In this document: one piece after another, positions 23,290 to 45,241 of the stretch
Position numbering within the stretch: position 1 is the stretch's first letter
Layout of the letters: each line of letters starts with the position of its first letter
Assembly (NCBI RefSeq): GCF_000422885.1
Contig: NZ_AUGX01000023.1
Span: 1 to 64,000 of the forward strand
Direction: 5' to 3'
Length of the DNA stretch: 64,000 nucleotides
Source: Ottowia thiooxydans DSM 14619
Lineage (GTDB): Bacteria > Pseudomonadota > Gammaproteobacteria > Burkholderiales > Burkholderiaceae_C
The notes under the pieces: model-generated
What the model was told of the DNA's origin: nothing
Databases searched by the model: none
Seen by the model: only the letters and a program-made list of their open reading frames with translations
Position numbers and translations under genes: made by a program

Positions 23290-23338
23290 TTGGTGGCGCT
23301 TCACGGATTCGAACCGCGGACCTGTGGATTATGATTCC
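23290..23338. repeat. Left attachment repeat of the island (49 bp)
   Basis: Identical to 45193-45241 in the same orientation. The sequence is the 3' part of the tRNA(CAU) gene from the CCA end through the anticodon loop, which is the usual core for tyrosine integrases. Confidence 0.9.
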
Positions 23339-23456
23339 CTGAATTTGGGTATTTGCCTATGTCGATTTATGTAGATAGAATTCATATAAATCAATAGGTT
23401 GTGTTAATTTTGGTTGGCCGACGTGTTGATTGGTATTCCTCGTTTCCGAGGAAAAA

Positions 23457-23477
23457 CTCTTACATCCGCCGTTACAT
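23457..23477 (+). repeat. 21-bp repeat near the left end of the island
   Basis: CTCTTACATCCGCCGTTACA plus T, identical and in the same orientation at 45091-45111 near the other end. It may be an integrase or excisionase arm site, or the trace of an older insertion; here it overlaps the integrase leader. Confidence 0.6.
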
Positions 23478-23482
23478 CGAGC

Positions 23483-24919
23483 ATGCCAAAAGTAGCCTTC
23501 ACTGCGCCCAGGGTGGCCAAATTCAAATGTCCGCCTGACAAGGCTCAGGCATTCCTCTGGGATGCCACTGCCCGCGGTCTGGGCCTTCGAATCACGCCCG
23601 ATGGCAGACCGTCGTACGTTTTCCAGGGTCTTTGGCAGGGGAAGACCATTAGGATCACCATCGGTAGTCCGGATGCCTGGACGATCCCCGACGCGCAAGC
23701 CAAGGCTCGAGAGCTGCAACGACAAATCGATGAGGGCTTCGATCCAAGAGAAGTCCGGCGAGAGGCTCAAGTTGCTCAGGAGAAGAAAAGAGCGGCGGAA
23801 GTTACTGCCGCCGAGCAGGCCGTTCGAGATGCAGCCGCAGCGACATTGACCGTTGGTGAAGTGTGGGCCGTGTACTTGAATGCTCGCCGCCCTCATTGGG
23901 GTGAGTTGCATTACCGCGACCACATCAAACTGGCGCGCGCAGGAGGAGAAGTCGCCAAGCGCGGTGTCAAGGGCAATAAGCTCACCATAGCCATGCCTTT
24001 GCATAGCCTTATGAGCCTGCCGCTGCGCAGCCTCGATGCCCCAAAGATTGAGGCATGGGCGGCCAAGGAGGCTCAAACCCGTCCAACTAGTGCCCGTCTC
24101 GCGTGGCGCCTTCTGAAGGTGTTTCTTAACTGGTGTAGTGAGCAGACCGAGTACGCCCAGTTGTTGCCCTCGGCAAAAGCCGCTGCAACACGAAAGACCC
24201 GCGAGGCGCTTGGTAAGCCTAGAGTCAAGACAGATAACCTCTTGCGCGAGCAGCTACCAAACTGGTTCTCGGCAGTGCGCAAGATCAACAACCCGGTGAT
24301 ATCAGCGGCCCTGCAAGTCATGCTTCTCACCGGAGCACGACCGGGAGAAGTTCTGCCCATGCGGTGGTCTGATGTGGATCTCCAATGGCAGCGCTTGACC
24401 ATTAGAGACAAGGTGGAGGGGGCGCGGGTGATCCCCTTGACGCCCTACGTGAAGTACCTGCTAGGGGGACTGCCTCGGCGAAACGAATGGGTGTTTGCCA
24501 GCACACGTACTGTGAGTATGGATGAAAAGAATATGGCTCGGCGCGAGCGGCGGGCATCCGCTAAGGGTGAACTGGCAGCAGTGGAAGAGGTGGTACAGGC
24601 CAGCGCTACCGGTCATATCTCTGAGCCACGCAGTCACCACGCGTGCGCTTGTCAGACCGCAGGCATCGAGGATCTAAGCCTTCATGGCCTGCGTCGTAGC
24701 TTCAAGAGCTTGACGGAGTGGTTGGAAATTCCAGCTGGCATCGTTGCACAGATCCAAGGTCACAAGCCCAGTGCCACTGCGGAGAAGCATTACACAGTAC
24801 GGCCGGTGGACTTGCTGAGGGTGCACCATGTGCGTATAGAGGCTTGGATGCTCAAGGAAGCTGGAGTTGATTTCGAATCAGCGCAGGCGCATCCCACTCT
24901 GCGAGTCGTCGGGGCATGA
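23483..24919 (+). CDS. Tyrosine-type site-specific integrase
   Basis: A 478-residue P4/phage-like integrase with an N-terminal DUF4102-type domain (KGLGLRI-like ARGLGLRITPDGRPSYVFQG, then GKTIRITIG) and a C-terminal catalytic domain. Catalytic residues are R286 (TGARPGE), H401 and R404 (HGLRRSF), H427 (GHKP) and Y437 (AEKHYT). The acidic/basic alpha linker at about 75-110 is typical. The ATG at 23483 is preferred because an upstream TTG would read through the 21-bp repeat. It lies 145 bases inside the left attachment repeat and would catalyse integration and excision at the tRNA(CAU) gene. Confidence 0.95.
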   Translation: MPKVAFTAPRVAKFKCPPDKAQAFLWDATARGLGLRITPDGRPSYVFQGLWQGKTIRITIGSPDAWTIPDAQAKARELQRQIDEGFDPREVRREAQVAQEKKRAAEVTAAEQAVRDAAAATLTVGEVWAVYLNARRPHWGELHYRDHIKLARAGGEVAKRGVKGNKLTIAMPLHSLMSLPLRSLDAPKIEAWAAKEAQTRPTSARLAWRLLKVFLNWCSEQTEYAQLLPSAKAAATRKTREALGKPRVKTDNLLREQLPNWFSAVRKINNPVISAALQVMLLTGARPGEVLPMRWSDVDLQWQRLTIRDKVEGARVIPLTPYVKYLLGGLPRRNEWVFASTRTVSMDEKNMARRERRASAKGELAAVEEVVQASATGHISEPRSHHACACQTAGIEDLSLHGLRRSFKSLTEWLEIPAGIVAQIQGHKPSATAEKHYTVRPVDLLRVHHVRIEAWMLKEAGVDFESAQAHPTLRVVGA

Positions 24920-25031
24920 AAGGTCAACAGAGGAGACGCGACTGCAGAGGTCTCGCTTCGGTCTTCTAGACCCGCTGCGGCCACAACCTTTCAATCGATT
25001 TTGTTGATCTGGCAACCGTACACTTAGGCAG

Positions 25032-25826
25032 ATGCAAAGAAAGCAACCCTCTGAAGGGCCGATCCCACAATCCGTGGCAGGAGAGGCGGATGCTGGTCAC
25101 GAGATCAGAGCAACCCATTGTGAGGAGCAGGAACAGTTGATTGGGTGGTACGACGCGACCATAGGGGCGTCGTATTGGTTGGGGCTACCCACCGTAACGG
25201 GACTCGAGGCTGCGCAACTCTTGTGCGCCGAGAACCCCGTCAATGCGAAGACCACAGATGACTGGCTGAATGCCACTAGCTGGAAGGAGAACGTAGGCGG
25301 CATCGCCCTCATGGATCCTGAGAATAGAAGACGACTCCTGCGCGGATTCCTGGGAGAGGGCAGTGAGAGGGCTCTACTCGAATGGCTGCAAATCGCCAAA
25401 AGACACGGATGGCGGTACGACCCGTGGATTGATAAGTATATAGAGGCGCTCAGAATCACCTCTGACAATGGAAGTCGTCGCGATCGGCAGGTGTTCACTG
25501 ACAAACCTGCGACGGCAAGACTTCCCGAGCCAGGATGGGAGCTACACAAACCAGAACGATTTGTTGGCTACGGTAACGCGCTGTACAAGACGCTTTTTAA
25601 CGTGCGCCAGGCAGGAGGGCATCGCCCCACGGCTCGTGAAGTCTTGGATATCTGGCAATTGGACAAACCGATTGACATCGCAATGGTGCTGCCGAACTCC
25701 ATTGATTACTACGATGCCAAAGGCAACACGAAACCCGCGGATCTGGATGCAATTCGGAAGGCCATCGGCCGCATGACGGACCCTAAGCGGACGTCAGAGC
25801 CAACAAGCGGACGACAGAGCCGATAA
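25032..25826 (+). CDS. Island-associated hypothetical protein
   Basis: A 264-residue soluble protein. The N-terminal half contains SYWLGLPTVTGLEAAQLLCAEN (quoted in part here) and a DWLNATS segment; the C-terminal part has the segment ARLPEPGWELHKPERFVGYG and a predicted HTH-like HRPTAREVLDIWQLDKP. No catalytic motif is recognised. Proteins of this design are often found between integrase and alpA genes of betaproteobacterial tRNA islands, so a role in island maintenance or regulation is plausible. This is inference from gene order only. Confidence 0.55.
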   Translation: MQRKQPSEGPIPQSVAGEADAGHEIRATHCEEQEQLIGWYDATIGASYWLGLPTVTGLEAAQLLCAENPVNAKTTDDWLNATSWKENVGGIALMDPENRRRLLRGFLGEGSERALLEWLQIAKRHGWRYDPWIDKYIEALRITSDNGSRRDRQVFTDKPATARLPEPGWELHKPERFVGYGNALYKTLFNVRQAGGHRPTAREVLDIWQLDKPIDIAMVLPNSIDYYDAKGNTKPADLDAIRKAIGRMTDPKRTSEPTSGRQSR

Positions 25827-25883
25827 GCATTGGAGATCGGCGCTTTAAAGGGATAGTGAATACATCCAAATTTTCAAGGATGT

Positions 25884-26129
25884 ATGCCAGTGATTCCCCA
25901 AGCCAATCAACCCGCCATTTCCTGTAACACACAGTTCCCACTGCTGGAGCACGTTACCAGCCCCACGGTCAACACAGCAGCAGCGGCGTACTATCTAAAT
26001 CGTCAGCCGCAAACTCTTCGAGGTTGGGCATCTGCCGAAAACTTTCCATCAGGCCTTAGGGCGCTTCGCGTTCATGGACGACTGATGTGGCCCACCGCAG
26101 ACATTCGTCGCCTGTTGGGAGTTGCCTGA
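25884..26129 (+). CDS. AlpA/excisionase-like DNA-binding protein
   Basis: An 81-residue protein whose C-terminal half reads like a MerR-type winged helix: NTAAAAYYLNRQPQTLRGWA (HTH) followed by RVHGRLMWPTADIRRLLGV (wing and final helix). This matches AlpA/excisionase proteins that control integrase activity or direct excision in tRNA islands. It lies between integrase and primase-type genes, as usual for such islands. Moderate confidence: the domain is clear, the exact function is inferred. Confidence 0.7.
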   Translation: MPVIPQANQPAISCNTQFPLLEHVTSPTVNTAAAAYYLNRQPQTLRGWASAENFPSGLRALRVHGRLMWPTADIRRLLGVA

Positions 26130-26208
26130 TGGTGATGTCGTCAATCTTTTCAGGAAATCACAGTCGAGGAGAGCCTGACTTCAACCTCACGGAGTTTCGG
26201 AGGCTACG

Positions 26209-26655
26209 GTGAAACGATCTTTGCTTGTCCAGTCCAACTTTGACGTCAAGATCGAAACAATTCTTTCCCGCCTGGAGGGGGTGCGGAAACAAGGGTGTGG
26301 CTTTGCGGCACGTTGCCCCGCCCATCAAGATCGCTCTCCGTCCTTGAGTCTCCGAGAGGGCGACGGGGGACGCATCCTGATTTACTGCCACGCAGGATGT
26401 ACCGCTGAAGCGGTGACCAGCTCGATCGGAATGACTGTGGGCGATCTCTTCCCTGACGACCCAAAACTGCGGAGACCGATTCCTATTCCCGGCGTCACGC
26501 GATCGCGTCTGCGCGAGGCAGCAGAAATCGAACGGGGAATTCTGTTCATCGTCAATGCAGACCGCCATGCGAACAAGCCAGTGAACGTTAATGACGAAGC
26601 CCGTGCCACGCTCGCAAGTCAGCGAATAGCCATGGCCAGGAGGTTTGGATGCTGA
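26209..26655 (+). CDS. CHC2-type zinc-finger (primase N-terminal) protein
   Basis: A 148-residue protein carrying the primase zinc-binding module: RCPAHQDRSPSLSL (C36, H39) and IYCHAGCTAEAV (C60, C64). It stops before any TOPRIM catalytic domain, so it cannot be a full primase. In related islands a short CHC2 protein precedes a DUF3987 protein, as here: the next gene starts 7 bases before this one ends, implying translational coupling. Together they probably initiate or regulate island replication. Length is short for a primase but normal for this island type. Confidence 0.75.
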   Translation: MKRSLLVQSNFDVKIETILSRLEGVRKQGCGFAARCPAHQDRSPSLSLREGDGGRILIYCHAGCTAEAVTSSIGMTVGDLFPDDPKLRRPIPIPGVTRSRLREAAEIERGILFIVNADRHANKPVNVNDEARATLASQRIAMARRFGC

Positions 26656-28190
26656 CAAGTATTCAAGAGACGGATGTTTGGAATGCCCTTGAGAGCACTT
26701 GGCCCATTCCTCGGGAGATCAAAAATGACCTGCCACCAGCCCCGGTGTTTGAAGCCGAACTTATGTTGCCACCCGTTCTTGCCAGTTTCGTATTGGACGA
26801 AGCGGACAGGATGCCTTGCGCACCGGACTACATCGCAGCCGCTTTGATCGTGTCCCTGGGGTCTGTGATCGGTGCGCTCTGCGCTATTAAGCCCAAGCGA
26901 CGAGATGACTGGATCGTCACGCCGAACCTTTTCGGAGGCATCGTGGGTGATCCCAGCAGCAAGAAATCGCCGGCCCTGAGTACGGTGACAAGGTATTTGG
27001 ATCGGCTAGAGGCTAAGGAAGCCGAATCACTGGCGAAGGATCAAAAGATATTTCAAGCGGAAGCAGCTGCGTTTGAAGCCCAGCAAGCGGTAGTGAAAGC
27101 TAGCATGAAGAAGGCAGCCATCAGCAACGGAGATGGTCGCAAGATGGCCTCGGCATTAGCTGACATGCAAGCACTTATCGCTCCTGAAGAGCCCCGCGTG
27201 CGCCGCTTTAAGTCTAACGACAGCACGGTCGAAAAACTGGGCGACCTGCTCTCCACCAATCCTCAAGGGCTCCTGGTCTTGCGTGATGAGTTGGTTGGCT
27301 TGTTATCAAGCTGGGAGAAGGATGGGCGCGAAGGAGATCGATCTTTCTACCTGGAAGGATGGAATGGAACAGGTAGCTTCAATATTGACCGTATCACCAG
27401 AGGCAGCTTGCACATTCCTAACTTGTGTTTGAGTGTGTTTGGTGGCATTCAGCCCGAATTGTTAGAGCGGTACTTGTCCGCTATGGCGAGCAGTCTTGAT
27501 AACGATGGAAGGATTCAGAGGTTCCAGGTGCTCGTGTATCCGGAGCCCGTAGCGTGGCACTGGCGTGACCGCAAACCTGCCGAGGGTGCTCGAGAGGCCG
27601 TACGTGATCTGTTCGAACGTTTGGCTCACCTTGACCCAGTGAAAAGCGGAGCAATTCCTGCGGATGACTTCGTGAAACTACCTCATTTCCACTTCGATGA
27701 CGCTGCACAAAGTGTGTTTGTGGAGTGGTGCCTGACATTGAATACGAAATTGATCCCTGATGAATCTAGTCTCATGCTGCGCCAGCACTACGGAAAGTAT
27801 GAGAAGCTTTTCTGTGCCCTTGCGTTGATCTTGCATTTGGTTGATGGCCACTGGGGACCGGTGGGAGCAGATAGCGCTCTTCGAGCTGCGGTTTGGTGCG
27901 AGTATCTTGCTGGGCATGCTCGCCGGGTGTACGGGCTGGTAGAGGCAGCGAAGGTAGGCACGGCGTGCACTGTCGGGCGAAAGATTGCAGAGGGCAAACT
28001 CGAAGACGGCTTCACGGTGCGGGATGTGGTGAGAAAGCAATGGACTGGCCTCACGACCACCCTACAGGCGGAAGGCGCGCTCGCCAGCTTGGAAGAGCAC
28101 GGATGGATCGTAGGCGTGCCAACGGAACCTGCCAGCGGACGACCGACCACCCGGTTCCATATCAATCCTCGGTATCGGGAGGCCATATGA
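26649..28190 (+). CDS. DUF3987 (YfjI-like) protein, putative island replication ATPase
   Basis: A 513-residue protein of the DUF3987/YfjI family. GGIVGDPSSKKSPALSTVT holds a Walker-A-like GDPSSKKS loop; a coiled, Lys/Ala-rich segment follows at about 115-160; then LLVLRDELVGLLSSWEKDG, with a Walker-B-like acidic pair, and NLCLSVFGGIQPELLERYL, a family signature. Members occur next to primase zinc-finger genes in phages and islands, and are thought to act in replication. Starts inside the 3' end of the CHC2 gene and ends by overlapping the next ATG, so all three are coupled. Confidence 0.8.
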   Translation: MLTSIQETDVWNALESTWPIPREIKNDLPPAPVFEAELMLPPVLASFVLDEADRMPCAPDYIAAALIVSLGSVIGALCAIKPKRRDDWIVTPNLFGGIVGDPSSKKSPALSTVTRYLDRLEAKEAESLAKDQKIFQAEAAAFEAQQAVVKASMKKAAISNGDGRKMASALADMQALIAPEEPRVRRFKSNDSTVEKLGDLLSTNPQGLLVLRDELVGLLSSWEKDGREGDRSFYLEGWNGTGSFNIDRITRGSLHIPNLCLSVFGGIQPELLERYLSAMASSLDNDGRIQRFQVLVYPEPVAWHWRDRKPAEGAREAVRDLFERLAHLDPVKSGAIPADDFVKLPHFHFDDAAQSVFVEWCLTLNTKLIPDESSLMLRQHYGKYEKLFCALALILHLVDGHWGPVGADSALRAAVWCEYLAGHARRVYGLVEAAKVGTACTVGRKIAEGKLEDGFTVRDVVRKQWTGLTTTLQAEGALASLEEHGWIVGVPTEPASGRPTTRFHINPRYREAI

Positions 28191-28525
28191 GCTGGCTTGC
28201 GCGTGCAAAAGCGCATTTTCAAACCAATGGTCAATGCCCCACTGACAGAACTGACGAAAGCCAGGTTTCGTCAGTTTTGGCAGTGCCTTCCGGAGGAGTC
28301 TATGAGATCCAACATGAAGTTTCGTCAGTATCGTCAGCAGGGGCCGCATACGTTACTGAAAAGAACGTCTCACCTGAAGAACTGTTGGAAGCCGCGATGC
28401 GGGCATGCGACTTTCACGGCGATAACTCTGCAGCACGGGAGCAGATGCGACGAGAGTGCCTCGAGCTTTCTACGACCGTGCGAGCCGACCTCCTCGAATA
28501 CTTCCATCGCATGTACCCGAGTTAG
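28187..28525 (+). CDS. Small island protein coupled to the DUF3987 gene
   Basis: A 112-residue soluble protein. Its ATG overlaps the TGA of the DUF3987 gene (ATGA), a strong sign of coupled translation. The N-terminus (MSWLARAKAHFQ) is basic, the middle Ser/Val-rich, and the C-terminal helix region (LLEAAMRACDFHGDN and REQMRRECLELS) is helical. No family recognised with certainty, though proteins of this kind often follow DUF3987 genes. Function unknown, presumably replication-associated. Confidence 0.6.
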   Translation: MSWLARAKAHFQTNGQCPTDRTDESQVSSVLAVPSGGVYEIQHEVSSVSSAGAAYVTEKNVSPEELLEAAMRACDFHGDNSAAREQMRRECLELSTTVRADLLEYFHRMYPS

Positions 28526-28578
28526 CAGTTCCCTCAATTCCGTGTGCTCCAGCGTCAGCTTTCTTATAGAACCAACGG

Positions 28579-28971
28579 GTGAACTCCTTTGACCAGTTTC
28601 GAATCCACCCGCAGAGTCAACCTTTGAGCTGCAATCCAATGCCTCAAAAATTACCAGAAACTAACTCCAATACTGCTCGCGCATCGAATGCTGACCTGCT
28701 CACCAGCGGCCGGCTTATGAATGCTTCTATCACGGAGAGTTATCTAGGAGTTACCTCCATAGGTCTTCGCGAACTCATGGAAAGCATTGACCGTCAAGCC
28801 GAAGCAGTCTGCAGAGGAGATCTTCGTGGAATCGAGGCTATGCTGGTGGGTCAAGCGATATCCATGCAGCGCCTGTTCAATGATCTCGCGATCCGCTTCG
28901 AGCCTCAGCTGGAGACTCATCAAACGCTACTGTTGCTAGCATCTGCGATCATCTGTTCACGGTTTTATTGA
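28579..28971 (+). CDS. Island protein, apparently shortened at the C-terminus
   Basis: A 130-residue protein. Residues about 75-115 (SIDRQAEAVCRGDLRGIEAM, then LVGQAISMQRLFNDLA) resemble a recurring tRNA-island family in which an Ala/Gln-rich helical core (xGDxxxxExMLVxQAxxLQxxF) is followed by a longer C-terminal part. Here the similarity ends and the frame finishes in a short hydrophobic tail, LLLASAIICSRFY, at the edge of an AT-rich stretch. This suggests truncation by an indel or replacement. The start is uncertain; an internal ATG at 28639 is possible. Confidence 0.5.
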   Translation: MNSFDQFRIHPQSQPLSCNPMPQKLPETNSNTARASNADLLTSGRLMNASITESYLGVTSIGLRELMESIDRQAEAVCRGDLRGIEAMLVGQAISMQRLFNDLAIRFEPQLETHQTLLLLASAIICSRFY

Positions 28972-29295
28972 GCAGTCGTGTTAGCCCCTCTAATGCTGGA
29001 ATGTGTCTAGATTAGAAGCAGTCAACATAGCAAATTTTCTCGCAAAAAATCAAATACAAAAGAATTAAAAATAGGTAAAAATACACTTGCGTACGTTGAT
29101 CAAGTAACCCGTTGCACCTCATGCGACCTTTGGCTTGTCCGCTTCACTTAAATCCTTAATATCCTCGCAGAACGGCTTGCAAATTACATTCAATTTGATA
29201 AGTGCTTATATAAGTAATAGAATTATCCACTTTAAAAATAATTAAACCACTTCTTATGTTGCAAAAGCCATTCTATCAAATTCACTTGGATTAAT
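28972..29295. other. AT-rich intergenic stretch inside the island
   Basis: About 320 bases, much richer in A and T than its surroundings, with no gene. It precedes an equally AT-rich small gene and probably entered with it. Confidence 0.4.
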
Positions 29296-29661
29296 ATGAA
29301 TGGATTATTCAAGCCAACATCCGTTGGCGCCAATTATAAGCTTTCATATTTGAATACCAACGCATTAATAGAGCAGTTGGAAGATATAATTCAGGCTCTT
29401 CTTGAAATTTTACCTCAAGACGAGTCATGGCAGCGCATTTTAATAAGGCAACTCAATCAAGCTGATTGTGATATTAAAGATCTCCGCTCAATGGTTTCCA
29501 AACCAAAAAAAAAGGAGGAATTTAATCGCCTTTCGCATTTGCTGCACGAGCATATATCTGAATCGAGTATGCAGGTTGAAGGGAGCTGTGCGGACAAGAC
29601 CTCCAAGAGTGCAATGAGATTTGCAAAGGCACTCTCTGCAGATATTTGCCATAAGGACTAG
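29296..29661 (+). CDS. Hypothetical protein encoded by AT-rich foreign DNA
   Basis: A 121-residue soluble, largely helical protein (for example NALIEQLEDIIQALLEILPQ and ILIRQLNQADCDIKDLRSMV). No known domain. Base composition and codon use (AAA, ATA, TTA) differ sharply from neighbours, pointing to acquisition from a low-GC donor. No Shine-Dalgarno is obvious. An antisense frame at 29488-29775 (VSVHLERLFENLVFGNYQSL) is an alternative coding possibility for the 3' part. Confidence 0.45.
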   Translation: MNGLFKPTSVGANYKLSYLNTNALIEQLEDIIQALLEILPQDESWQRILIRQLNQADCDIKDLRSMVSKPKKKEEFNRLSHLLHEHISESSMQVEGSCADKTSKSAMRFAKALSADICHKD

Positions 29662-29809
29662 CTGTGAAGCCTCAATGGGTTGTAGAGGGGTGTCATCCAG
29701 ATCGGGTTTGAGAGACTGGTAGTTGCCAAACACCAAATTCTCAAAGAGCCGCTCCAGATGAACACTCACAAGCATGCCTGACTTACCTATGCCCCTCGCC
29801 TCCAGCTAG

Positions 29810-30250
29810 GCCGACAGATGACCGAGGAAGGTTTGGGCGCTTGCGAATCAGCCGCGTTGCACGGCGTACCCCGCCGACGGCCAGGAGGTGGCTGGGCCGC
29901 TATCTGGCCGATGGCGAGCAATCCTTGGCCGATACCTCCTCATGACCGTGGCGCTCACCGCGTTGCATCGATGCGGCCAAGGCATTCTTGATCGTGGAAA
30001 TGCGCCGCCGCCGGATGCTGCAATCTTGCCCCGCCAGCAGCGTGAGCGAGTCCACCGTCAGCCGGGTACTCAGGCGCGCGGGTCTGTCCAGCCTGAGCGA
30101 TCTGAAACCTGCCGAGCCTGTGGTCGCTACGAACACGAGGTTGCAGGCGAATTGCTGCACATCCACACCAGGAAGCTCGGGCGCATCGTGCGGTCCAGCC
30201 ACCGCGTGACGGGCAACCGGCGCGACTCGGTCGACGGAGCCGGCTGGGAG
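29810..30250 (+). pseudogene. IS481-family transposase remnant, N-terminal half, frameshifted
   Basis: Across two or three frames the translation follows an IS481 transposase: EEGLGACESAALHGV, then WLGRYLADGEQSLAD, SVSESTVSRVLRRAGLSSLS DLKPAEPVV (in parts) and finally RYEHEVAGELLHIHTRKLGR, where the expected first catalytic Asp of the LLHIDxKKLGR motif is His. It then reaches HRVTGNRRDSVDGAGWE and stops near 30250. The rest of the DDE domain is missing. Several frameshifts make it non-functional. Confidence 0.65.
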
Positions 30251-30591: not shown

Positions 30592-30791
30592 CACCTCTGC
30601 ATCTGCCGGGCCATCTGCGTGTGAGGCGCCATGCCCATGGTGATTGGGCAATCCGTAATTTTAATGAGAAGTTCTCACTGAAACACAGAGACCAGCCAAG
30701 CCGGAGAACGTCCTCTATTACGCATGATAAGGAAAGGGACAAATGGAGAAATTTCTTGGCGGCTATGTTCTGGCACTAGAACCGTTGTGCC

Positions 30792-30836
30792 CAAAAAAAA
30801 AGGGGAATTGCACGCTCGTGCAACTCCCCCTTTTTC
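30792..30836. terminator. Bidirectional rho-independent terminator
   Basis: AGGGG..TTGCAC and GTGCAA..CCCCT form a long stem around GCTC, flanked by nine A on the left and five T on the right. It ends the minus-strand exported-protein gene that follows. Confidence 0.85.
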
Positions 30837-30852
30837 GCTAAGCCCTATTACA

Positions 30853-34734: not shown

Positions 34735-34767
34735 ATTTGTAGCAATCACATCAATCGGAGGAGAATC

Positions 34768-36598: not shown

Positions 36599-38140
36599 TC
36601 AATCAACTTGAGAATGGGTGTTTCTTTGAGCGGCTGCGATGATCGCGCATTTCAACTCACTGGCCGAACGAAGTGCTATCAGCGGTGGCGGGGGAGCCTC
36701 CCCCAACCATGATGGAGCATTGCGGCATTCTTCCATTGTGAAAAGGAAGAATTGGAGAGCAGTTTTGTCCTCTTGCATCTGTGCCAACAGCACCCAATCA
36801 GCAGCTGGAAACCGGGACTTCTTCGGGAACTGCCAGCGTTTGATGAGAAGTGCGCTTCGCGGCCACGTTAGTTGGAGCCTAAGCCTGCAACGACTCTCGA
36901 TGATCAGGACGCGGCTCCGGGTATGGATATGGCAAGCGATGCCTTCCGAGGCAATGAGTGCGGCGATATCGTGACTAAGTCGATTTCCGACATTACGTCC
37001 AACCACTTTGCGCTTTTCGTGCAACGAGCGCGCTGCTCGCGAATCTCTGCCTGCAAGCTCCAGGGCCTTAGCCACAGAGCCAAAGGCATTCGTATAGGCC
37101 TTCCTCGATCTGATGCCAATTGCTTCGAGATCTAGTGTGCTGACGTTTGGATCCTGGGCCAACTTGGCCCGCAGGATTTCCAAAAGCTCTTCCTTATCGG
37201 GATGCTGTCTTCTACGCTCCCAGAGCTTACGCTGTACCTGGTCCCATAATTCTTTCTGCACCACCCGCTCGATAACGCCTTCCGCCCTGGTTGCTGGCCG
37301 TTTTCTTATGGCTTTGCCCGCCGCTTGGTGCACCCGTCCCCAGACGAAATTTCCAGCGAACGCCTCACACCTTAGTAATCGATCAACAACAGGCGCCCTA
37401 AATTGATTTCCACTTGGCGTCAAAACGCCTTCTTCTTGAAGTGTCCTCGCCGTCTTTTTAATGGTCCCGCCCTCAGCGGCGTACAGTTCAAAAATGCGAT
37501 TCACGAGCTTGACCTCGCTTTCCGGCCCAAGTACCCAGGCAATGCGTTCGTTCTGCAAGCCCTTCCTCTGGAATGGTGCCAACGGTCGCCTGTTTCCCCA
37601 TCGATCAATCGCAACCCGCCTTAAACCCAAAGGTGGTAGGGATCCCATCTGAAATCCCAGTTGAATTGCCCGGTCCTGTCCCGCCCGTGTTTTCACACCT
37701 AATTCGCGAGCGTACTCCGCCGCCATTGCCCTTTTTAGAGTCTTCAGCAATGCGGTTAGAGGATCAATATCCGAGCCGAAGGGCTCTTGAACATAGACCA
37801 CACGGACACCATTCATGCGGCAGGTGTACTCGTAGTAGGCAGCTGCGTCGATGTCCTGAAAGCGGCCCCAACGGCTTACGTCATAGACCAGTACCACCTC
37901 GAAAGGCGGTGGCACCTCTAAAACATCCCGAAGGAGTTCCTTCATTCCATCGCGGTTTTCGATTCTGAGGCCGCTTTTTGCTGCGTCCTGGTAGATCTTG
38001 ATAAGCGTGAGGCCATTCTTAAATGCGTACGACCGGATCGCCTCCAGTTGGGTGCTGAGAGAAAGATCTTGCTTGTCACTCGACATTCGCAGATACGCGG
38101 ATGCCCGTAGATCCGGCAGCGGCTTCGTGACGGCGGTCAT
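36599..38140 (-). CDS. Large serine recombinase
   Basis: A 513-residue recombinase. The N-terminal resolvase domain starts with ASAYLRMSSDKQDLSLSTQ; catalytic Ser is S20. DVSRWGRF carries the active-site Arg. A recombinase domain (about 170-300; for example MGSLPPLGLRR and then TARTLQEEGVLTPSG) follows, then a long basic C-terminal part to 513 that ends in an unusual region rich in Arg/Lys. The ATG at 38140 fits the family. It is the second recombinase of the island, probably from a separate insertion event or for an internal element; no second pair of attachment repeats was found. Confidence 0.85.
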   Translation of the reverse strand: MTAVTKPLPDLRASAYLRMSSDKQDLSLSTQLEAIRSYAFKNGLTLIKIYQDAAKSGLRIENRDGMKELLRDVLEVPPPFEVVLVYDVSRWGRFQDIDAAAYYEYTCRMNGVRVVYVQEPFGSDIDPLTALLKTLKRAMAAEYARELGVKTRAGQDRAIQLGFQMGSLPPLGLRRVAIDRWGNRRPLAPFQRKGLQNERIAWVLGPESEVKLVNRIFELYAAEGGTIKKTARTLQEEGVLTPSGNQFRAPVVDRLLRCEAFAGNFVWGRVHQAAGKAIRKRPATRAEGVIERVVQKELWDQVQRKLWERRRQHPDKEELLEILRAKLAQDPNVSTLDLEAIGIRSRKAYTNAFGSVAKALELAGRDSRAARSLHEKRKVVGRNVGNRLSHDIAALIASEGIACHIHTRSRVLIIESRCRLRLQLTWPRSALLIKRWQFPKKSRFPAADWVLLAQMQEDKTALQFFLFTMEECRNAPSWLGEAPPPPLIALRSASELKCAIIAAAQRNTHSQVD

Positions 38141-38263
38141 ATCACACTCCAGTATGGTCAGCCTCAAGGTACAACCATACCGCCAAATTCGAGGGGTTGG
38201 GATTTATTCGTTCCTCGGTCGGCTCCACCATAAGGAGACATCGCTATACAGATCAACCGTTCC

Positions 38264-39229
38264 ATGCGCGCTCTCGGCATTTCCGGGCTTCTGCTCGCCA
38301 TGTTGGCCGGCCCACTGGCCGCGCAGCCGGCGTGGCCCAACTGTACGGTCAAATTCGTCGTTCCCAGCAATGCCGGCGGCAGCCCCGACCGCGTCACGCG
38401 GCTGCTGGCCGAGCGGCTATCCAAGAAGTGGGGGCAGCCGACAGTCGTTGAGAACAAGGCCGGCGCCACGTCCATCATCGGGACCGACTTCGTGGCCAAA
38501 TCGCCCGCCGACGGCTACACGCTGCTATCCACCTTCACCTCGCTCGTGCAGGTGCCGGCGCTGTTCAAACGCGTACCCTACGACACCGAACGCGACCTTG
38601 TGGCGGTTACGCAGACCGTGGCTGTGGACGTGCTGTTCCTCGTGCGTGCCGATTCGCCATACAAGACCCTGCAGGACTTCGCCGCAGCCGCTAAAACCGC
38701 CAAACCGCCGCTGAGCTATGGCTCCTTCGGCAACGGGTCGTCATTCCACATCTATGGCGAGAAACTCGCGCAATCCATGGGTGCTGACCTGACCCACGTG
38801 CCCTACAAGGGAGAACTGCCATCCACGACAGATCTGCTGGGCGGACAGCTTAACTCCTCCTTCGCCTCTGTCGGCACGGCCTTGCCTTTCCTGACCGATG
38901 GCCGTCTGCGCCCGCTGGGCGTAGCCTCAACCAAGCGCTCACCGGTTTTGCCGAACGTGCCGACGCTGGGCGAGCTGGGCATGAACATGCCCGATCTCGT
39001 GGGATGGTTCGGGGTGCTCGCGCCCGCCGGCACGCCTGCACCCATCATCCAGAAAGTTGCCGCCGACATCCGCGAGATTCTCACCCAGCCTGACGTCGTG
39101 AAAATACTGCGTGATCAAGGGTTGGAGCCGGTTGCCAGTTCCCCCGAGGCGTTCCAACGTCGGCTCCAAGACGATCTTGTGCAGTGGAAAAAACTGCTGC
39201 CCGAGGTCGGCATCAAGCCCGCAGATTGA
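38264..39229 (+). CDS. Bug/TctC-family extracytoplasmic solute receptor
   Basis: A 321-residue periplasmic binding protein with an N-terminal signal peptide (GLLLAMLAGPLAAQPA). Family features: KFVVPSNAGGSPDRVTRLLA (first beta-alpha motif), GQPTVVENKAGA, GTDFVAKSPADGYTLL, and HVPYKG. These are typical of tripartite tricarboxylate receptors expanded in Burkholderiales. It binds a small carboxylate-like ligand, unknown here; no TctAB membrane genes accompany it. It is near, but not clearly in an operon with, the DMT-RpiR and PanE-TauE genes. Confidence 0.9.
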   Translation: MRALGISGLLLAMLAGPLAAQPAWPNCTVKFVVPSNAGGSPDRVTRLLAERLSKKWGQPTVVENKAGATSIIGTDFVAKSPADGYTLLSTFTSLVQVPALFKRVPYDTERDLVAVTQTVAVDVLFLVRADSPYKTLQDFAAAAKTAKPPLSYGSFGNGSSFHIYGEKLAQSMGADLTHVPYKGELPSTTDLLGGQLNSSFASVGTALPFLTDGRLRPLGVASTKRSPVLPNVPTLGELGMNMPDLVGWFGVLAPAGTPAPIIQKVAADIREILTQPDVVKILRDQGLEPVASSPEAFQRRLQDDLVQWKKLLPEVGIKPAD

Positions 39230-39327
39230 AGCCCGGCGGCCGCTCGGCACAATCTGCGCCGGCCGGAACTCTTGTCCACGGGGCAATGTCATCCAAAGCG
39301 ACAAGTGGCCACTCATCGCTTGGCGTG

Positions 39328-40188
39328 TCAAAAACTGATCGCCGCGATCCCGGCAAGCACGACCGCCGCCCCGGCAAGCCTGCGTGCGAGATGGTCCTCT
39401 CCAAAGAGCTTCCACGCGAGGAGAGAGCCAATGACGATGGAAGACTCGCGCAGGGGCGCGATGAGCGCCACGGGCGCGCTCTGCATGGCGGTGAGAACGA
39501 GGATATAGGCTAGCGGCGAGAACACGGCCACTATGATGATTGGTACGGCGTCACTACGCATGGCCGCTTGGATTCGATGCCGTCGGCGCAGCGCGATAGG
39601 GGTCAGCATCAGGCTCTGCAGCAGCAGAGTGCCTGCGTAGTAGCTCACGGGCGCCAAGTGCAACGAGTTGACCGAGTAGCTATCCCAGAGGGTATAGCAG
39701 GCTATGGTGGCACCCGTTGCAGTACCCCAAATCATTCCCTGCAGCGGGCGGCGGCTCCCGCTCTTGAAAGGGTTGCCAATAACGACGAGGATGCCCGCGA
39801 CGACAAGGAGCGCGCCGAGTATCGCGATGGGGGTGAGCCGCTCGCCCAGGATGAGCATCGCGAACAGCATGGTTAGTACCGGCCCTGTTCCACGGGCAAC
39901 AGGATAAATCACCCCAAGCTCGGAGCGGTCGTAGCCAGCCTGCAGAGTCAGGGAGTACGCGAGGTGCAACGCGGCTGAAACGGCAGAGCCCACCGCGAAG
40001 CGCCAATCGAACGCCTGTTGCCCCTTAGCCACGAGGGCGATTGCAATAGGGACGCACAGCAATGCCGAAGCGCAGGTGTAAGCCCAGACGAACAACACGG
40101 TATCTTCCCGCTTGTACTTGGAGGCCAGGTTCCACACCGCATGGGCTACTGCCGCAGTCAGGACGATCGCGACAGTGCCTGATTGCAT
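39328..40188 (-). CDS. EamA/DMT-family transporter
   Basis: A 286-residue protein with about ten transmembrane helices in two EamA repeats; the segment PVARGTGPVLTMLFAMLILG in the first half is the recognisable EamA motif. Likely exports or takes up a small metabolite. Its ATG overlaps the stop of the RpiR-type regulator gene (TAATG), so the two are translationally coupled and share a promoter controlled from 41074-41087. The substrate is unknown; a link with the divergent ketopantoate-reductase-like enzyme is suggested by position. Confidence 0.8.
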   Translation of the reverse strand: MQSGTVAIVLTAAVAHAVWNLASKYKREDTVLFVWAYTCASALLCVPIAIALVAKGQQAFDWRFAVGSAVSAALHLAYSLTLQAGYDRSELGVIYPVARGTGPVLTMLFAMLILGERLTPIAILGALLVVAGILVVIGNPFKSGSRRPLQGMIWGTATGATIACYTLWDSYSVNSLHLAPVSYYAGTLLLQSLMLTPIALRRRHRIQAAMRSDAVPIIIVAVFSPLAYILVLTAMQSAPVALIAPLRESSIVIGSLLAWKLFGEDHLARRLAGAAVVLAGIAAISF

Positions 40189-41072
40189 TAGGAGATGTCG
40201 GGCAGGTCGATGCCGGCCCGCTCCGCCCGGCGGCTTCGCTCTGGGTCGCGCAAAGCGATCGCGGCGACCAGTGCGTCGATGACAACGAGTTGGGCCAATC
40301 GACTCCCTGCAGCCGCCATCTGTGCCGGCAGTGGCGCACCGCCAACGACAAGCGCGATGTCCGCGAGAGTCGCTAGGGGTGTGCCGTACTGGTTGGTGAC
40401 CGCGATGAGCGAGGCTCCGGCGGAGGAAGCCGCATCGGCGATGGCGAGCGTTGTTGAGGTACGTCCGGTCGAACTGACGGCGATGACGACATCGCCAGGT
40501 CCAAGGAGCCGGGTCGCGATCATCGCAGACAAATAGTCCGGGATACTGACCGTCGTCACGCCTACCGCGCGCAGACGGAAGACCGCGTCGGCGGCGACAG
40601 TAGCCGAAGTGCCAGCACCAAATGCGATGACCTGACGCGCATGTTGGATTACGCCGACTGCGTTGTCGAGCGCGGTGAGCTCGACAGCCCCACCGAGCGC
40701 AGTGAGTGCGTCGGTGCCGGCGCGGATGGATGTTTCGAGCACCGTCGACAAATTTGCGTCCGTGGTAAGTGCTTCAGGAGGCGCGAAGAATCGAGTTGTG
40801 CCGCGGGCGCGAGCGATCTCGATCTTGAGCTCGGTGAACCCTGTGAACCCGATCGCACGCGCGGCGCGGATCACGCTGGGCGGCGAAACGCCAGCACGGG
40901 CTGCAACCTGCGCGGTCGTGCTGGCGCCGACAAACAAAGGATCGGCGAGCAGAAGAGCAACCACTTTCGCCTCACTTGCAGCGAGATCGCCGCTGCGGGC
41001 CTGAATGCTTCCAATCCATTGGCCAAGCCGCCCGCCCTCGCCTGAAACTCCATTACCAATTTCTTCTTTCAT
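40188..41072 (-). CDS. MurR/RpiR-family transcriptional regulator
   Basis: A 294-residue regulator. The N-terminal HTH_6 domain includes TTAQVAARAGVSPPSVIRAA and the helix pair before it; the C-terminal SIS domain shows VIAFGAGTSATVAADAVFRL and VVIAVSSTGRTSTTLAIADA (in parts), the sugar-phosphate-binding loops. The ATG at 41072 is adjacent to a perfect palindrome TGTAATATATTACA (41074-41087) that should be its operator. It drives leftward to the DMT gene and would repress or activate the divergent PanE-like and TauE genes. The effector is unknown, probably a phosphorylated or carboxylated metabolite. Confidence 0.85.
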   Translation of the reverse strand: MKEEIGNGVSGEGGRLGQWIGSIQARSGDLAASEAKVVALLLADPLFVGASTTAQVAARAGVSPPSVIRAARAIGFTGFTELKIEIARARGTTRFFAPPEALTTDANLSTVLETSIRAGTDALTALGGAVELTALDNAVGVIQHARQVIAFGAGTSATVAADAVFRLRAVGVTTVSIPDYLSAMIATRLLGPGDVVIAVSSTGRTSTTLAIADAASSAGASLIAVTNQYGTPLATLADIALVVGGAPLPAQMAAAGSRLAQLVVIDALVAAIALRDPERSRRAERAGIDLPDIS

Positions 41073-41073
41073 T

Positions 41074-41087
41074 TGTAATATATTACA
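41074..41087. promoter_or_regulatory. Perfect 14-bp palindrome, candidate RpiR operator
   Basis: TGTAATATATTACA, arms of 7 with no spacer, immediately before the RpiR start and in the divergent promoter of the PanE-like gene. It matches the general shape of RpiR-family sites. Confidence 0.65.
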
Positions 41088-41157
41088 GGGATCGTCAAAA
41101 AAACACAACCATCGCGTGAGCGGATGGTCTGCAACACAGCCAAAGGAGTCCGATTCC

Positions 41158-42054
41158 ATGAGTACAGAAATCAATACATCCGTCGCTGTTGTGGGCCCAG
41201 GTGCTATCGGCACCACGGTCGCGGCGGCGCTTCACGAAGTCGGCCGAACGCCGTCGCTGTGTGGCCGCACACCCCGCGAGCGCTTGACGCTGCGGGATGG
41301 CGATCAACTCATCACCGTGCCCGGACCCGTCCGGACGGATCCCGCACAGATCGATGGTCCGGTCGATCTCGTCTTTCTTGCGGTCAAGGCGACGCAAATC
41401 GAGGCGGCAGCAGAATGGCTCGCGGCGTTAAGCGCTCCGGAAACCGTCGTATGCGTTCTGCAGAACGGGATCGAACAGTTGGAGATGGTCACTCCGCATT
41501 GCCCGCGCGGGCGTATCGTTCCCGCTGTCGTATGGTTTCCTGCGCAGACGCAATCCGATGGCTCGGTGCTCTTGCGCGGCGACGCGCGCCTCAGCCTGCC
41601 AGACACGTCGGCCTCGCGGGTGGTGGCCGAGGCGCTGCAAGGCACTCGGTGCTCCGTAGATCTAACCGCAAACTTCAGCTCTCTAGCTTGGCGCAAGCTG
41701 CTGCAGAACGCAGTGGCTGGACTTATGGTCCTCACGCACCGCCGCTCGGGCATGTTCGGCCGGCCCGACATCGCCAGGCTCACCCTCGCCTATTTGCGGG
41801 AATGCTTGTCAGTGGCCCGCGCCGAGGGAGCTGAACTTGGCTACGAGGTGCCGCAGGAGATCCTGGACAAGTTCCAGGCATCTCCCGCCGACATGGGCAC
41901 CTCCATACTCACGGATCGGGAAGCTGGCCGCGCCCTCGAATGGGATATTCGCAACGGTGTAGTCTCGCGTCGCGGCCGGGCTCACGGCATCCCCACGCCC
42001 ATTAGCGACATATTGGTGCCTCTCCTCGCGGCCGCGAGCGACGGCCCTGGGTAA
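41158..42054 (+). CDS. PanE/ApbA-like ketopantoate reductase-family enzyme
   Basis: A 298-residue NAD(P)-dependent reductase of the 2-dehydropantoate 2-reductase family. VAVVGPGAIGTTVAAAL is the nucleotide-binding GxGxxG segment; LAVKATQIEAAAEWLAAL and VCVLQNGIEQLE (the QNG motif) are family-typical; the catalytic Lys region is WRKLLQNAVAG. Paralogous to housekeeping panE; substrate uncertain because such paralogues often act on other 2-oxo acids. AAAGGAG precedes the ATG at 41158. It is followed 11 bases later by a TauE transporter gene, so they form an operon under the RpiR regulator. Confidence 0.85.
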   Translation: MSTEINTSVAVVGPGAIGTTVAAALHEVGRTPSLCGRTPRERLTLRDGDQLITVPGPVRTDPAQIDGPVDLVFLAVKATQIEAAAEWLAALSAPETVVCVLQNGIEQLEMVTPHCPRGRIVPAVVWFPAQTQSDGSVLLRGDARLSLPDTSASRVVAEALQGTRCSVDLTANFSSLAWRKLLQNAVAGLMVLTHRRSGMFGRPDIARLTLAYLRECLSVARAEGAELGYEVPQEILDKFQASPADMGTSILTDREAGRALEWDIRNGVVSRRGRAHGIPTPISDILVPLLAAASDGPG

Positions 42055-42065
42055 CCCGGCGACCT

Positions 42066-42806
42066 ATGATCGCGCTGTCACTCCTCTTCCTTCTCGCCCT
42101 TTGTGCCGGAGTCCTCAGCGGCGTCGTCGGCACCGGCTCGTCGCTGATCATGCTTCCCGTCCTAGTCGCTCAGTACGGGCCTCGGATAGCCGTTCCCGTG
42201 ATGGCGATCGCCTCCCTGCTCGGCAACATCGGGCGCGTGATCGTCTGGTGGCACGAGATCCGCTGGCGGCCGGTGCTCGCCTACTCGTTGACGGGTGTTC
42301 CCGCAGCCATGCTGGGCGCTCACACGTTGATGAGCGTCCCACCCGTCGTCGTAGACGTCTTCCTGGCCGCCTTCTTCCTGGCGATGATCCCGCTGCGACG
42401 CCTGCTCAGGCGCTCGCAAATCCACCTTCGAGTCTGGCACATGGCGGTCGCCGGAGGAATCGTCGGATTCCTGACTGGATTCGTGCTGTCCACCGGGCCG
42501 CTCAGCGTGCCGATATTCACGGGGTACGGAATGAGCGGCGGCGCGTTCCTCGGGTCGGAGGCCGCAAGCGCGGTCTTGCTCTACGCGGGCAAGCTCGGCA
42601 CCTTCGGGGTGGCTGGCGTCCTCACTCCGCTCGTCATTGCACGCGGCCTCGCCATCGGCCTCGCGCTGCTCGTCGGTTCGATGATTGCCAAACGTCTGGT
42701 TCAGCGGCTCCAGACGCACACCTTCGAGTTTCTCATTGATGCGGTGCTCGTCGCTGGGGCGGCATCAATGATTGCGCCTCAATGCAACTGCTGGGCGATG
42801 CACTGA
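42066..42806 (+). CDS. TauE/SafE-family membrane transporter
   Basis: A 246-residue protein with about seven or eight transmembrane helices. The opening LSLLFLLALCAGVLSGVVGTGSS (in parts) and the second-repeat segment GGIVGFLTGFVLSTGPLSVP are the TauE/SafE signatures. Members move small organic or inorganic anions such as sulfite, sulfonates or related acids. Encoded directly after the PanE-like gene; a role in exporting or importing the enzyme's substrate or product is an inference. Downstream 42807-43031 holds only a short unassigned fragment. Confidence 0.85.
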   Translation: MIALSLLFLLALCAGVLSGVVGTGSSLIMLPVLVAQYGPRIAVPVMAIASLLGNIGRVIVWWHEIRWRPVLAYSLTGVPAAMLGAHTLMSVPPVVVDVFLAAFFLAMIPLRRLLRRSQIHLRVWHMAVAGGIVGFLTGFVLSTGPLSVPIFTGYGMSGGAFLGSEAASAVLLYAGKLGTFGVAGVLTPLVIARGLAIGLALLVGSMIAKRLVQRLQTHTFEFLIDAVLVAGAASMIAPQCNCWAMH

Positions 42807-43031
42807 ATGTTGGCGCGTGCCCAAGGATTCACGCCTCTCGATCTACTGAAGGTTGCCGAAGTAACCGCCACTTGTTCAGCAAGCGCCAAAATGGCTGGCG
42901 ATGCCATTACCGGCGGAAGCCATCGTCACCTTATTCTCCAATCTGCTCCATTCGATCTATTAAAAGACTCGACTCAAGATCAAGCTTGGCGTCGACACTC
43001 TTTAAGACTGTGAAAAGGCTGCCACTGGCCA

Positions 43032-44330
43032 TTAGGCTCGAGCTACAGGAATCTCCATGAAGTTGGTCGTGTAGTTAGGAGTTCGACGCTCCTGCCTCAT
43101 GCCCCACTGCCGGGACTCGCCTGGAACGCCTGTACTGGCCAGATGCAATGTGCCCTTCCCGTAGCGGAAGTTGAGTGCATCAAGGGCGGACATTAGGCGA
43201 CTTCTATCTGGTCCAGTGTCTTGGTCTAGATTCAACTCTCCCTGCTGCACATGGTCAGGCAAGAGATCAAGAAGCATCACCCCGGCCTTTGTTAGCTGAT
43301 ACCCGGGTTCGTAAATGCGGCGGACCCCGGACAAAGCAGCTTGAGCGAGCAACGCAGTGTCGGCGGTCGGTCGGCGTAAAGGCAACGTGATACTGCGGTT
43401 GAATCTTGGCCCGGTGCGGTGTGGAGAGGTGTGCGCGAACACCAGGACCTGGCTGGCAAGACCAGATTGCTTGCGCAGCTTCTCCGCCGCTCTGCCCACA
43501 AACTCAGAGACCGCCTCAATCAAGGGTGCCAGGTCGGTGATCGGTCGTCCGAAGCTCCGAGTGGACGCAATCTCCTTCTTGGGCGATGGCTCGTCGTCCA
43601 AGCCGATGCACGGAACGCCCTGCAACTCGAGAACCGTCCTTTCCAGAACGACGCTCCAGCGGCTTCGCACCGTCGCAGGATCCATGCGAGCGAGATCCCA
43701 CACAGTTTGAACTCCTGCATCACGTAATTGAGCGCCGATGCGCCGACCTACGCCCCACACTTCACCGACATCAGTGGCGGCTAATGTTGCCTCCAGGGTT
43801 TGAGCGGATAGGGCTGAGAGGTTGCATATCTGACTCATTTCCCCCGGATAGCTGGTCGGTTTCCGCTCTGCGGTTTTGGCAATGTGGTTGGCGAGTTTCG
43901 CCAACGTCTTCGTTGTTCCAATGCCAATACCGCATGGGATGCCAGTCCATTGAAGAATGCGATCTCGAACGCGACGAGACCTTTCAGTCAGGTCGCCTCG
44001 CACGCCATGAAGGCCGACGAACGATTCGTCAATGGAGTAAATCTCTTGCTGGGGACCTAAGCCTGCCGCCAGAGACATCACCCGGTCACTCATGTCGCCA
44101 TAAAGGGGGAAATTCGCCGAGAGCGCAACCAAACCATCACTTTCGGCCAAGTGTCGAATCTGAAACCACGGGGCGCCCATCGCCACGCCGAGCTCCTTGG
44201 CTTCATTACTCCGCGCAATTGCACAACCGTCATTATTTGACAGCACAACCACGGGACGACCCTGCAAGCTGGGTCTAAAAACCCGTTCACAACTCACGTA
44301 GAAGTTGTTGCCATCCACCAGCGCAAACAT
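43032..44330 (-). CDS. umuC: Translesion DNA polymerase V subunit UmuC
   Basis: A 432-residue Y-family polymerase. [20 protein letters not shown] is the catalytic start (D6; the palm); [19 protein letters not shown] and [10 protein letters not shown] (the SIDE-like motif with the catalytic Asp-Glu) follow; [19 protein letters not shown] is the helix-hairpin region. The C-terminal little-finger domain and UmuC-type tail are present. The start overlaps nothing, 2 bases after the umuD stop, so the two are an operon. Functions in error-prone synthesis across DNA damage with UmuD'. Complete and plausibly functional. Confidence 0.95.
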
Positions 44331-44332
44331 GG

Positions 44333-44767
44333 TCAAGTCTGGAAGCGTTTTATGCTGCTGGTGACAACGCCCCAAACTTCGATGGTCTGATCGTTCCCCG
44401 GAGAGATGTCAGGATAGGTCGGGTTGGCTGCCTTGAGCTTGATGCGGCCAGCGCGCTGGTACAGAGTCTTCACCGTGAATTCCCCATCCACGACGGCAAC
44501 CACAATATGACCGTGTCGAGGCTTCAGCGCGCGATCAACTATGAGCGTATCTCCATCAAAGATTCCAGCGTCACGCATGGACTCTCCGCGGACCCGAATC
44601 AAGAAGGTAGCTTGGGGGTGCTTTACTAGCTCTGCCGTAAGATCAATGCGCTTGACTGCGAAGTCCTCAGCGGGCGATGGGAATCCCGCGCATACGCGAT
44701 CACCGACCAGCGGCAGCAAAAGCGCCGGAGCCCTGGTCTCGGGTGGCAACCGCAAAACACTGATCAT
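44333..44767 (-). CDS. umuD: UmuD, self-cleaving SOS mutagenesis protein
   Basis: A 144-residue LexA/UmuD-type serine peptidase. The cleavage site is A27-G28 in [13 protein letters not shown]; the catalytic Ser63 is in RGESMRDAG, and the Lys100 in VDGEFTVK completes the dyad. RecA-stimulated autocleavage yields UmuD', the partner of UmuC. The ATG at 44767 lies within a LexA-type box (44760-44775), so start placement is unusual; a GTG six codons upstream (44785) would be a possible alternative. First gene of a LexA-controlled umuDC operon in the island. Confidence 0.92.
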
Positions 44768-44775
44768 ACATACAG
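44760..44775. promoter_or_regulatory. LexA-type SOS box in front of umuD
   Basis: CTGATCATACATACAG, a CTG-N10-CAG site, with TATACT-like -10 sequence beside it. It overlaps the chosen umuD start codon. This fits a LexA-controlled promoter with a very short or absent leader. Confidence 0.75.
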
Positions 44776-44785
44776 TATAAGGCAC

Positions 44786-45138
44786 TGCCGCAACGCCGGT
44801 AACCCACTTTTTGAAGCGTCAGCCTGCTTGTGTGTTGCCACGCGAGCTGCGATTATGGGTTGACCTCAGAGTCAAGAGAAGACTAACTTCCGCAGAGAGC
44901 TGGGCCAGCTCAAGAGGACGTTTCGGAAGCAAAGCATCTCGCGCGGATCGAAGCGATCTCACGAGAAAATTGCAGCGGTAAGGTTTCGTCCATTGTGCAG
45001 TAACGCGGGCATTGATTTTCCCGCGCAGCCTGGTTCACGCATTAGGTTCCACATAGCCCCGCGCGCGCAGACCTATTGACCGCCGAAATGCTCTTACATC
45101 CGCCGTTACATTGGCCAAGTTAGAGCACCAAAGAGAAA
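44786..45138. other. Island right-end non-coding region
   Basis: About 350 bases between umuD and the tRNA terminator. No gene seen. It contains the 21-bp repeat at 45091-45111. Confidence 0.5.
45091..45111 (+). repeat. 21-bp repeat near the right end of the island
   Basis: Identical to 23457-23477, same orientation. It lies about 80 bases inside the right attachment repeat, whereas the left copy lies about 120 bases inside the left one. Confidence 0.6.
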
Positions 45139-45170
45139 GCCCCGCACTACTGTATTTGTAGCAACGGGGC
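45139..45170 (-). terminator. tRNA terminator brought by the island
   Basis: On the minus strand GCCCCG and CGGGGC form the outer stem (with CTAC/GTAG inside), followed by TTTCTCTTT. It serves the tRNA(CAU) gene in its present position. Confidence 0.75.
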
Positions 45171-45192
45171 CTAGAGCCACAAGGGCTTATGT

Positions 45193-45241
45193 TTGGTGGC
45201 GCTTCACGGATTCGAACCGCGGACCTGTGGATTATGATTCC
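45193..45241. repeat. Right attachment repeat of the island (49 bp)
   Basis: Identical to 23290-23338. Here the repeat lies within the intact tRNA gene, so this end carries the reconstituted tRNA 3' half. Confidence 0.9.

Follow-up and report, generated by a model that had tools for sequence, protein, structure and literature searches.

The interval 23290–45241 of a 64,000-nucleotide stretch of Ottowia thiooxydans DSM 14619 (contig NZ_AUGX01000023.1, positions 1 to 64,000; hereafter the window) is very probably an integrative element that belongs, by its tyrosine integrase, to the IntF-like subfamily and that has entered the elongator tRNA-Met gene at the anticodon stem-loop. Its integrase gene, int, is found at the opposite end from the intact tRNA gene, beside a displaced 3' fragment of that gene, and comparison of related sequences indicates that this position is a stable trait of the integrase's subfamily, with few exceptions. 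The tRNA island is genuine and its kind is already known, E. coli IntF and its element CP4-6 being the precedent.

Bounds of the island and position of its integrase

The first-pass annotation of the window had reported an exact duplication of the 3' part of a tRNA(CAU) gene, and this was borne out: the two cores listed in Table 1 are identical over 49 bp, cannot be extended by one base on either side, and rank fourth-longest among the exact direct repeats in the window. The displaced fragment is oriented like the intact copy, and the island between the repeats is ~21.9 kb long. An excised circle, previously described as a literal join of 45241 to 23338, would instead carry one copy of the core and measure 21,903 bp. 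Islander (PMC4383910) recognizes a tRNA island by an intact tRNA gene with a same-orientation 3' fragment on the tRNA's 3' side, together with a tyrosine integrase gene within the interval, and all of these are present here. Among the 43 of 44 tRNA places in the genome that were typed (C34:85-157 was left out), the elongator tRNA-Met gene is the only one of its type, and a genome search with the gene as query returned no second close copy. The other CAU tRNA genes are one fMet and one Ile2; the labels of all three were assigned from sequence features that we take to be diagnostic. A tRNA-type terminator had been proposed at each end. That on the left is clearly an intrinsic terminator. On the right, a hairpin at ~45137–45172 has a stable predicted fold (−24.5 kcal/mol, z −2.1) with a T-rich stretch after it, yet went unflagged in the terminator pattern scan.

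As the annotation had placed it, int lies inside the left end, far from the intact tRNA gene, and starts 145 bp inside the left repeat. No solved structure with sequence kinship to the integrase was found. The arm-type repeat in front of int stops 5 bp short of the start codon. An Arm-DNA-bind_3 integrase encoded beside one arm, with tandem arm repeats flanking the core on both sides, is the plan of phage P4, whose record X51522 annotates 12-bp arm repeats in tandem to either side of the core. The window differs from P4 in that int does not adjoin an intact tRNA gene on the same strand, the tRNA segment has the opposite orientation, and the anticodon stem holds the break. The int gene, the reading frame of the small winged-helix protein and both arms are uninterrupted in this island.

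Table 1. Features of the island and its left border (window positions)
Feature	Position	Strand	Basis or remark
Degenerate arm-like tandem GCTAC-N6-GCTAC	23216–23231		74 bp outside displaced fragment; weak
Intrinsic terminator outside displaced fragment	23252–23274	minus (23274–23252)	clear
Left attachment (att) core = displaced 3' fragment of elongator tRNA-Met	23290–23338	minus	nucleotide (nt) 30 to CCA end plus 1 base; exact 49-bp match
Candidate int promoter TTGCCT-17-TAGAAT	23353–23381	plus	inside element
Integration host factor (IHF)-type site WATCAANNNNTTR	23389–23401	plus	pattern match
Arm-type 21-bp tandem repeat CTCTTACATCCGCCGTTACAT	23457–23477	plus	just before int; 118 bp from left core
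Tyrosine integrase, IntF-like, 478 aa	23483–24919	plus	Arm-DNA-bind_3 and Phage_integrase domains
Small winged-helix protein, 81 aa, candidate recombination directionality factor	25884–26129	plus	tblastn and predicted fold
CHC2-type zinc ribbon small protein and DUF3987 protein, candidate replication module	26209–28190	plus	Pfam
Large serine recombinase, cargo or nested element	36599–38167	minus	domain match
Cargo cluster TctC, EamA, RpiR, ApbA, TauE (metabolism/transport)	38264–42806		domain matches
umuD-umuC error-prone polymerase genes, tRNA end of island	43032–44785	minus	domain matches
Second copy of 21-bp arm-type repeat	45091–45111	plus	tRNA end; 81 bp from right core
Right att core	45193–45241	minus	within intact tRNA gene; nt 30 to CCA end plus 1 base
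Intact elongator tRNA-Met (CAU)	45194–45270	minus	gene detection and typing

Layout, target and attachment-site elements among relatives

To place the position of int in a wider frame, relatives were taken from a scan in which an alignment of 19 integrases was run against the genome contigs of 84,980 species, and the loci of the best 80 of 544 were examined, with own-genome tRNAs as probes for tRNA fragments. To judge from the named kin of its integrase, the host is Comamonadaceae-like. An overlapping second set of relatives probably repeats some genomes (e.g., L094 and L122), and the two sets were never summed. An antisense tRNA 3' fragment was present 145–253 bp upstream of int in 77 of the 80 loci, starting at nt 25–31 in 75 of them and at nt 19 in the other two; two of the three loci that have no fragment offer little upstream sequence (169 bp at L165 and 73 bp at L167). 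Wherever the cognate intact tRNA gene was within reach on the far side (20 loci and CP4-6), its orientation was that of the fragment. No second integrase was found within the examined relative loci. The same antisense fragment accompanied 26 of 39 relatives in IMG/VR, which are mostly 36–48% identical, and none of the 39 had the usual layout; four others had antisense pieces ending short, and nine gave no match or had insufficient sequence.

As a control, 399 genomes from the same host family were searched for P4 Int, and the 30 best loci were taken. An intact tRNA or tmRNA gene lay on the same strand as int, 156–216 bp upstream of it, in 15 of the 30, and 15 loci were without one; not one of the 30 had an antisense fragment spanning the anticodon stem to the 3' end. 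The P4-Int relatives differ from the window in that the intact tRNA gene, where found, is upstream of int and on its strand.

The closest described case is E. coli K-12 CP4-6 (thrW, intF), examined in the F-plasmid copy of the region, whose IntF is 41% identical to the window integrase. As in the window, int occupies the end opposite the intact tRNA-Thr(CGT) gene and adjoins an antisense 3' fragment of that tRNA, and an arm repeat is found again at the other end, over 16 bp; CP4-6 differs in its tRNA, in its cargo and in having no match to the IHF pattern. In PMC2951348, tRNA-integrase pairs are sorted into four layouts, of which "opposite and divergent" together with one other makes up less than 8%; E. 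coli intF beside ptwF has the opposite-divergent layout, and IntF represses its own promoter ~23-fold. The int gene of the window is likewise divergent from the tRNA fragment that it adjoins. The first-pass annotation had called the position of int less usual, which agrees with that survey of annotated tRNA-integrase pairs, but within the subfamily the same position is the rule. Stated as a subfamily-wide rule, the layout was not met in the portions of the literature that our searches reached.

The fragments, each typed by its best match to the own-genome tRNA panel, belong to His (21), Lys (16), Ile2 (12), Met (8), Ser(CGA) (7), Asn (5), Phe (5) and Cys (3), counts that are approximate because three of the 16 "Lys" fragments have a CAU loop and one "His" fragment has a Gln-like loop. 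What the targets have in common is the motif GA-N7-TC across the anticodon loop, which is found in 75 of the 77 fragments, the remaining two being near misses. By script, the motif is present in 11 of 39 own-genome tRNAs, or in 12 with tRNA-Cys, where it was seen by eye, and all eight target types fall among these 12. Anticodon-centred sites account for 2083 of 3919 islands in PMC4383910, so this type of site is common.

On an integrase tree of 74 relatives and the window (L137, L159 and L168 were omitted as short), tRNA type changed 26 times, against at least 41 in shuffles, and the class of arm repeat 11 times, against at least 32; since related sequences are not independent, these counts are comparisons with shuffles and not probabilities. 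The arms therefore stay closely tied to the integrase, and switches of target are more frequent. The genome holds two further elements of the same clade, with the arm class of the window: one of ~21.8 kb in tRNA-Asn (L187 and L088; G000:C1:75026-96879) and one of ~7.3 kb in tRNA-Phe (L089; G000:C5:20543-27908).

The other elements of the attachment site recur at regular distances. The IHF pattern, written from a consensus that we take to be the accepted one, was found in 68 of the 77 relatives with a fragment, compared to a mean of 0.52 and a largest value of 5 in shuffles, and the distance from the IHF-type site to the GA of the stem-loop was 52–53 bp in 62 of 67. The spacing from IHF-type site to arm among the 67 was 68–71 bp (19 loci), 78–82 bp (47) or 91 bp (1); the groups lie ~11 bp apart, an offset that could stem from helical phase or from an 11-bp repeat unit being gained and lost. 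In 61 of the 77 there is a promoter-like pair resembling the one in front of the window's int; single-base shuffles gave 15.7 on average. Finally, 20 of 22 elements with both ends visible (the window, CP4-6 and 20 relative loci) carry their own arm repeat at both ends in the same orientation; its sequence varies between elements, and 10–29 bp are common to the two ends.

Gene content, flanks and rival explanations

We then considered what the island carries. The CHC2 match of the candidate replication module falls slightly below the Pfam cut-off. The serine recombinase could be the sign of a nested element; the island also contains a weak transposase match. Parts of the cargo cluster have kin at 75–79% identity on plasmids of Klebsiella variicola, Stutzerimonas and Variovorax. 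A LexA-type box at 44759–44777, called with what we take to be the LexA consensus, stands at the start of umuDC and suggests, from its sequence, that these genes are under SOS control. No relaxase or type IV secretion family, as expected of an integrative and conjugative element, was found among the 25 island open reading frames (ORFs) searched in Pfam, and no packaging or structural family, as expected of a phage or phage satellite, was found among the island ORFs searched (25 in Pfam, 10 in PHROGs).

The small winged-helix protein is probably the excision factor, as judged from its predicted fold. By tblastn, 57 of the 89 int loci, a set that includes some short contigs, have kin of this protein, and the fold (mean predicted local distance difference test score, pLDDT, 79) best matches BldC, RdfS and the Xis of Pukovnik. 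Its likeness to RdfS and Pukovnik Xis lies in the winged helix and is a weak match (E 0.025–0.066); PMC11963761 reports superpositions of RdfS with Pukovnik Xis and with BldC at less than 2 Å.

The repeats had also been thought to define the ancestral site, and this was not supported by the flanks. In L177–L182, the six best tRNA matches among 60 relatives, miaB lies 0.3–0.8 kb downstream of tRNA-Met, and no integrase of the IntF-like kind was found in the 17–20 kb inspected around these tRNA genes. In O. thiooxydans, miaB is on contig 4 at 413.7 kb (L220, 13216–15052), with its upstream ORF retained and tRNA-Met absent, and no second displaced tRNA-Met fragment was found near it. In G084, miaB lies 9.6 kb past the displaced fragment. 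The 23-kb left flank of the window carries other genes and gave no match to the six tRNA-Met loci. The place of miaB and the other genes of the left flank point to a rearrangement, or to an older island, that replaced the tRNA gene's neighbour. On the right, the sole match to the six loci was an enoyl-CoA hydratase stretch at 63.7 kb, which was not taken as synteny because such genes commonly have paralogues.

The degenerate tandem outside the displaced fragment is possibly the trace of an older tandem element, to go by its sequence; a tandem array in the left flank was considered and set aside, being retained as a possibility, as this degenerate repeat was all that was found. A clearer outer arm was seen at 7 of 72 relative loci, and 46 of 1420 random 300-bp pieces of these loci match too. 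At these seven (L099, L103, L119, L124, L127, L136 and L139), arm-like tandem repeats lie 71–95 bp outside the displaced fragment, six of the seven being of another class than the element's own, and they possibly represent tandem elements. Just outside the left end of the island, at 19696–22270, an AAA ATPase gene is followed by a methyltransferase gene that matches PD-Lambda-5_B (E 1.5e-108); the ATPase matches many defence ATPase models, among 25 of 66 matches listed, and the pair possibly serves in phage defence, as far as these matches tell. The left flank also contains direct duplications (3082–3340/16124–16382, 99.6%; 13596–13684/23015–23102, 81%), and a run of CACCAG repeats lies at 59917–59974.

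Several observations weigh against an IntF-like element with a subfamily-wide layout. Neither a circular form nor excision was observed. No empty site for the window's flanks was found among the 60 relatives with a joined query that had just 17 bp of left flank, and the last 800 bp of the left flank occur nowhere else in 29 genus genomes (the window's included), save for a weak 57-base match. The 80 loci examined are those of the top-ranking relatives, and L145 is a true exception: its 345 bp of upstream sequence (1–345) hold an IHF-type site, and no tRNA fragment was found there; it may use another target. Short antisense tRNA-like matches (E 0.1 or worse) occurred in 9 of the 30 P4-Int loci, the nearest to the pattern being L210 (nt 28–51, 171 bp upstream), which ends before the 3' end. 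The IHF pattern is absent from 9 of the 77 relatives and from CP4-6; L126 and L134 have no common arm repeat, while L104, L116, L148 and L170 share just 10–12 bp. The CP4-6 fragment has CATTCGTAATG where the window clade has GA-N7-TC, so the motif is a rule for the clade and not for every IntF relative. The fold matches of the winged-helix protein reach E values of 0.01–0.07, with none below 0.001.

Could the position of int have arisen within this one island? A conventional P4-type island that was later inverted internally, or a composite that took int from another island, would account for it, and the same hosts often show the usual layout (half of the P4-Int loci), while the island contains both a serine recombinase and a weak transposase match. 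Such a history is nevertheless very improbable, given that the reversed layout recurs in nearly all the relatives examined and across about eight tRNA types, and that the window's arm repeats match over 21 bp with the orientation and spacing seen in relatives. We give still less credence to the repeat being a chance or homologous duplication of part of a tRNA gene and not an att site: tRNA pieces can be duplicated by other routes, but a break at nt 25–31, beside int, in 75 of the 77 relatives with a fragment is hard to reconcile with this.

A phage satellite, or a prophage remnant needing a helper phage, is unlikely, if less remote than these. The CHC2/DUF3987 replication-type genes, a helix-turn-helix regulator, the SOS-type umuDC genes and the int relatives on 39 IMG/VR contigs speak for it; against it stand the lack of structural and packaging families among the ORFs searched, a single weak int match in 50,697 phage records, and relatives that have int and the small protein in common and other genes seldom. 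The most serious competitor is a fixed island that has lost its mobility, to which we assign a real but clearly minor chance. The transposase remnant suggested by the weak match, the loss of the conserved miaB neighbour and the missing empty site are consistent with it, whereas no damage is apparent in int, the candidate excision factor, either arm or either core, and the genome has two other elements from this clade. Our preferred reading remains an integrative element of the IntF-like subfamily, which may still be mobile.

A proposed recombination scheme and its significance

Under this reading, Int would act at the GA-N7-TC stem-loop, the presumed place of crossover, to recombine the tRNA gene with the element's attachment site (attP). 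The incoming element would bring the 3' part of the tRNA, rebuilding the gene and shifting the old 3' part 21.9 kb away. The attP would be planned as in P4, but its tRNA segment faces the other way, so that int comes to lie beside the displaced fragment. IHF would bend the attP arm, Int bound to the arm repeats would probably repress int, and the winged-helix protein would probably drive excision.

Since int would be transcribed from its own promoter, between the core and arm sites, it should have no need of the tRNA promoter and should be read in the same way whether the element is integrated or circular. Promoter switching by integration state is reported in PMC13023037 for an integrase gene adjoining its tRNA, and a promoter inside the element should avoid switching of this kind.

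More broadly, we consider it an even proposition that IntF-like integrases form a wide class with attP of reversed polarity, which would target the anticodon stem (GA-N7-TC in the clade) instead of the 3' end, carry one lineage across about eight tRNA types, keep the int promoter inside attP, free of the tRNA promoter and of integration state, and combine arms that co-vary with the integrase with fixed spacing of core, IHF-type site and arm. Earlier surveys may have made such a class look rare, since what adjoins int is a tRNA fragment that carries no annotation; its elements would escape methods matching integrases to annotated tRNA genes. Elements of the subfamily can instead be delimited by the antisense tRNA 3' fragment upstream of int. 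Direct predictions for integration specificity and int switching follow from the GA-N7-TC target rule, from the pairing of arm repeats and from the constant spacing of the IHF-type site, and a remark on a single island thereby becomes a testable rule.

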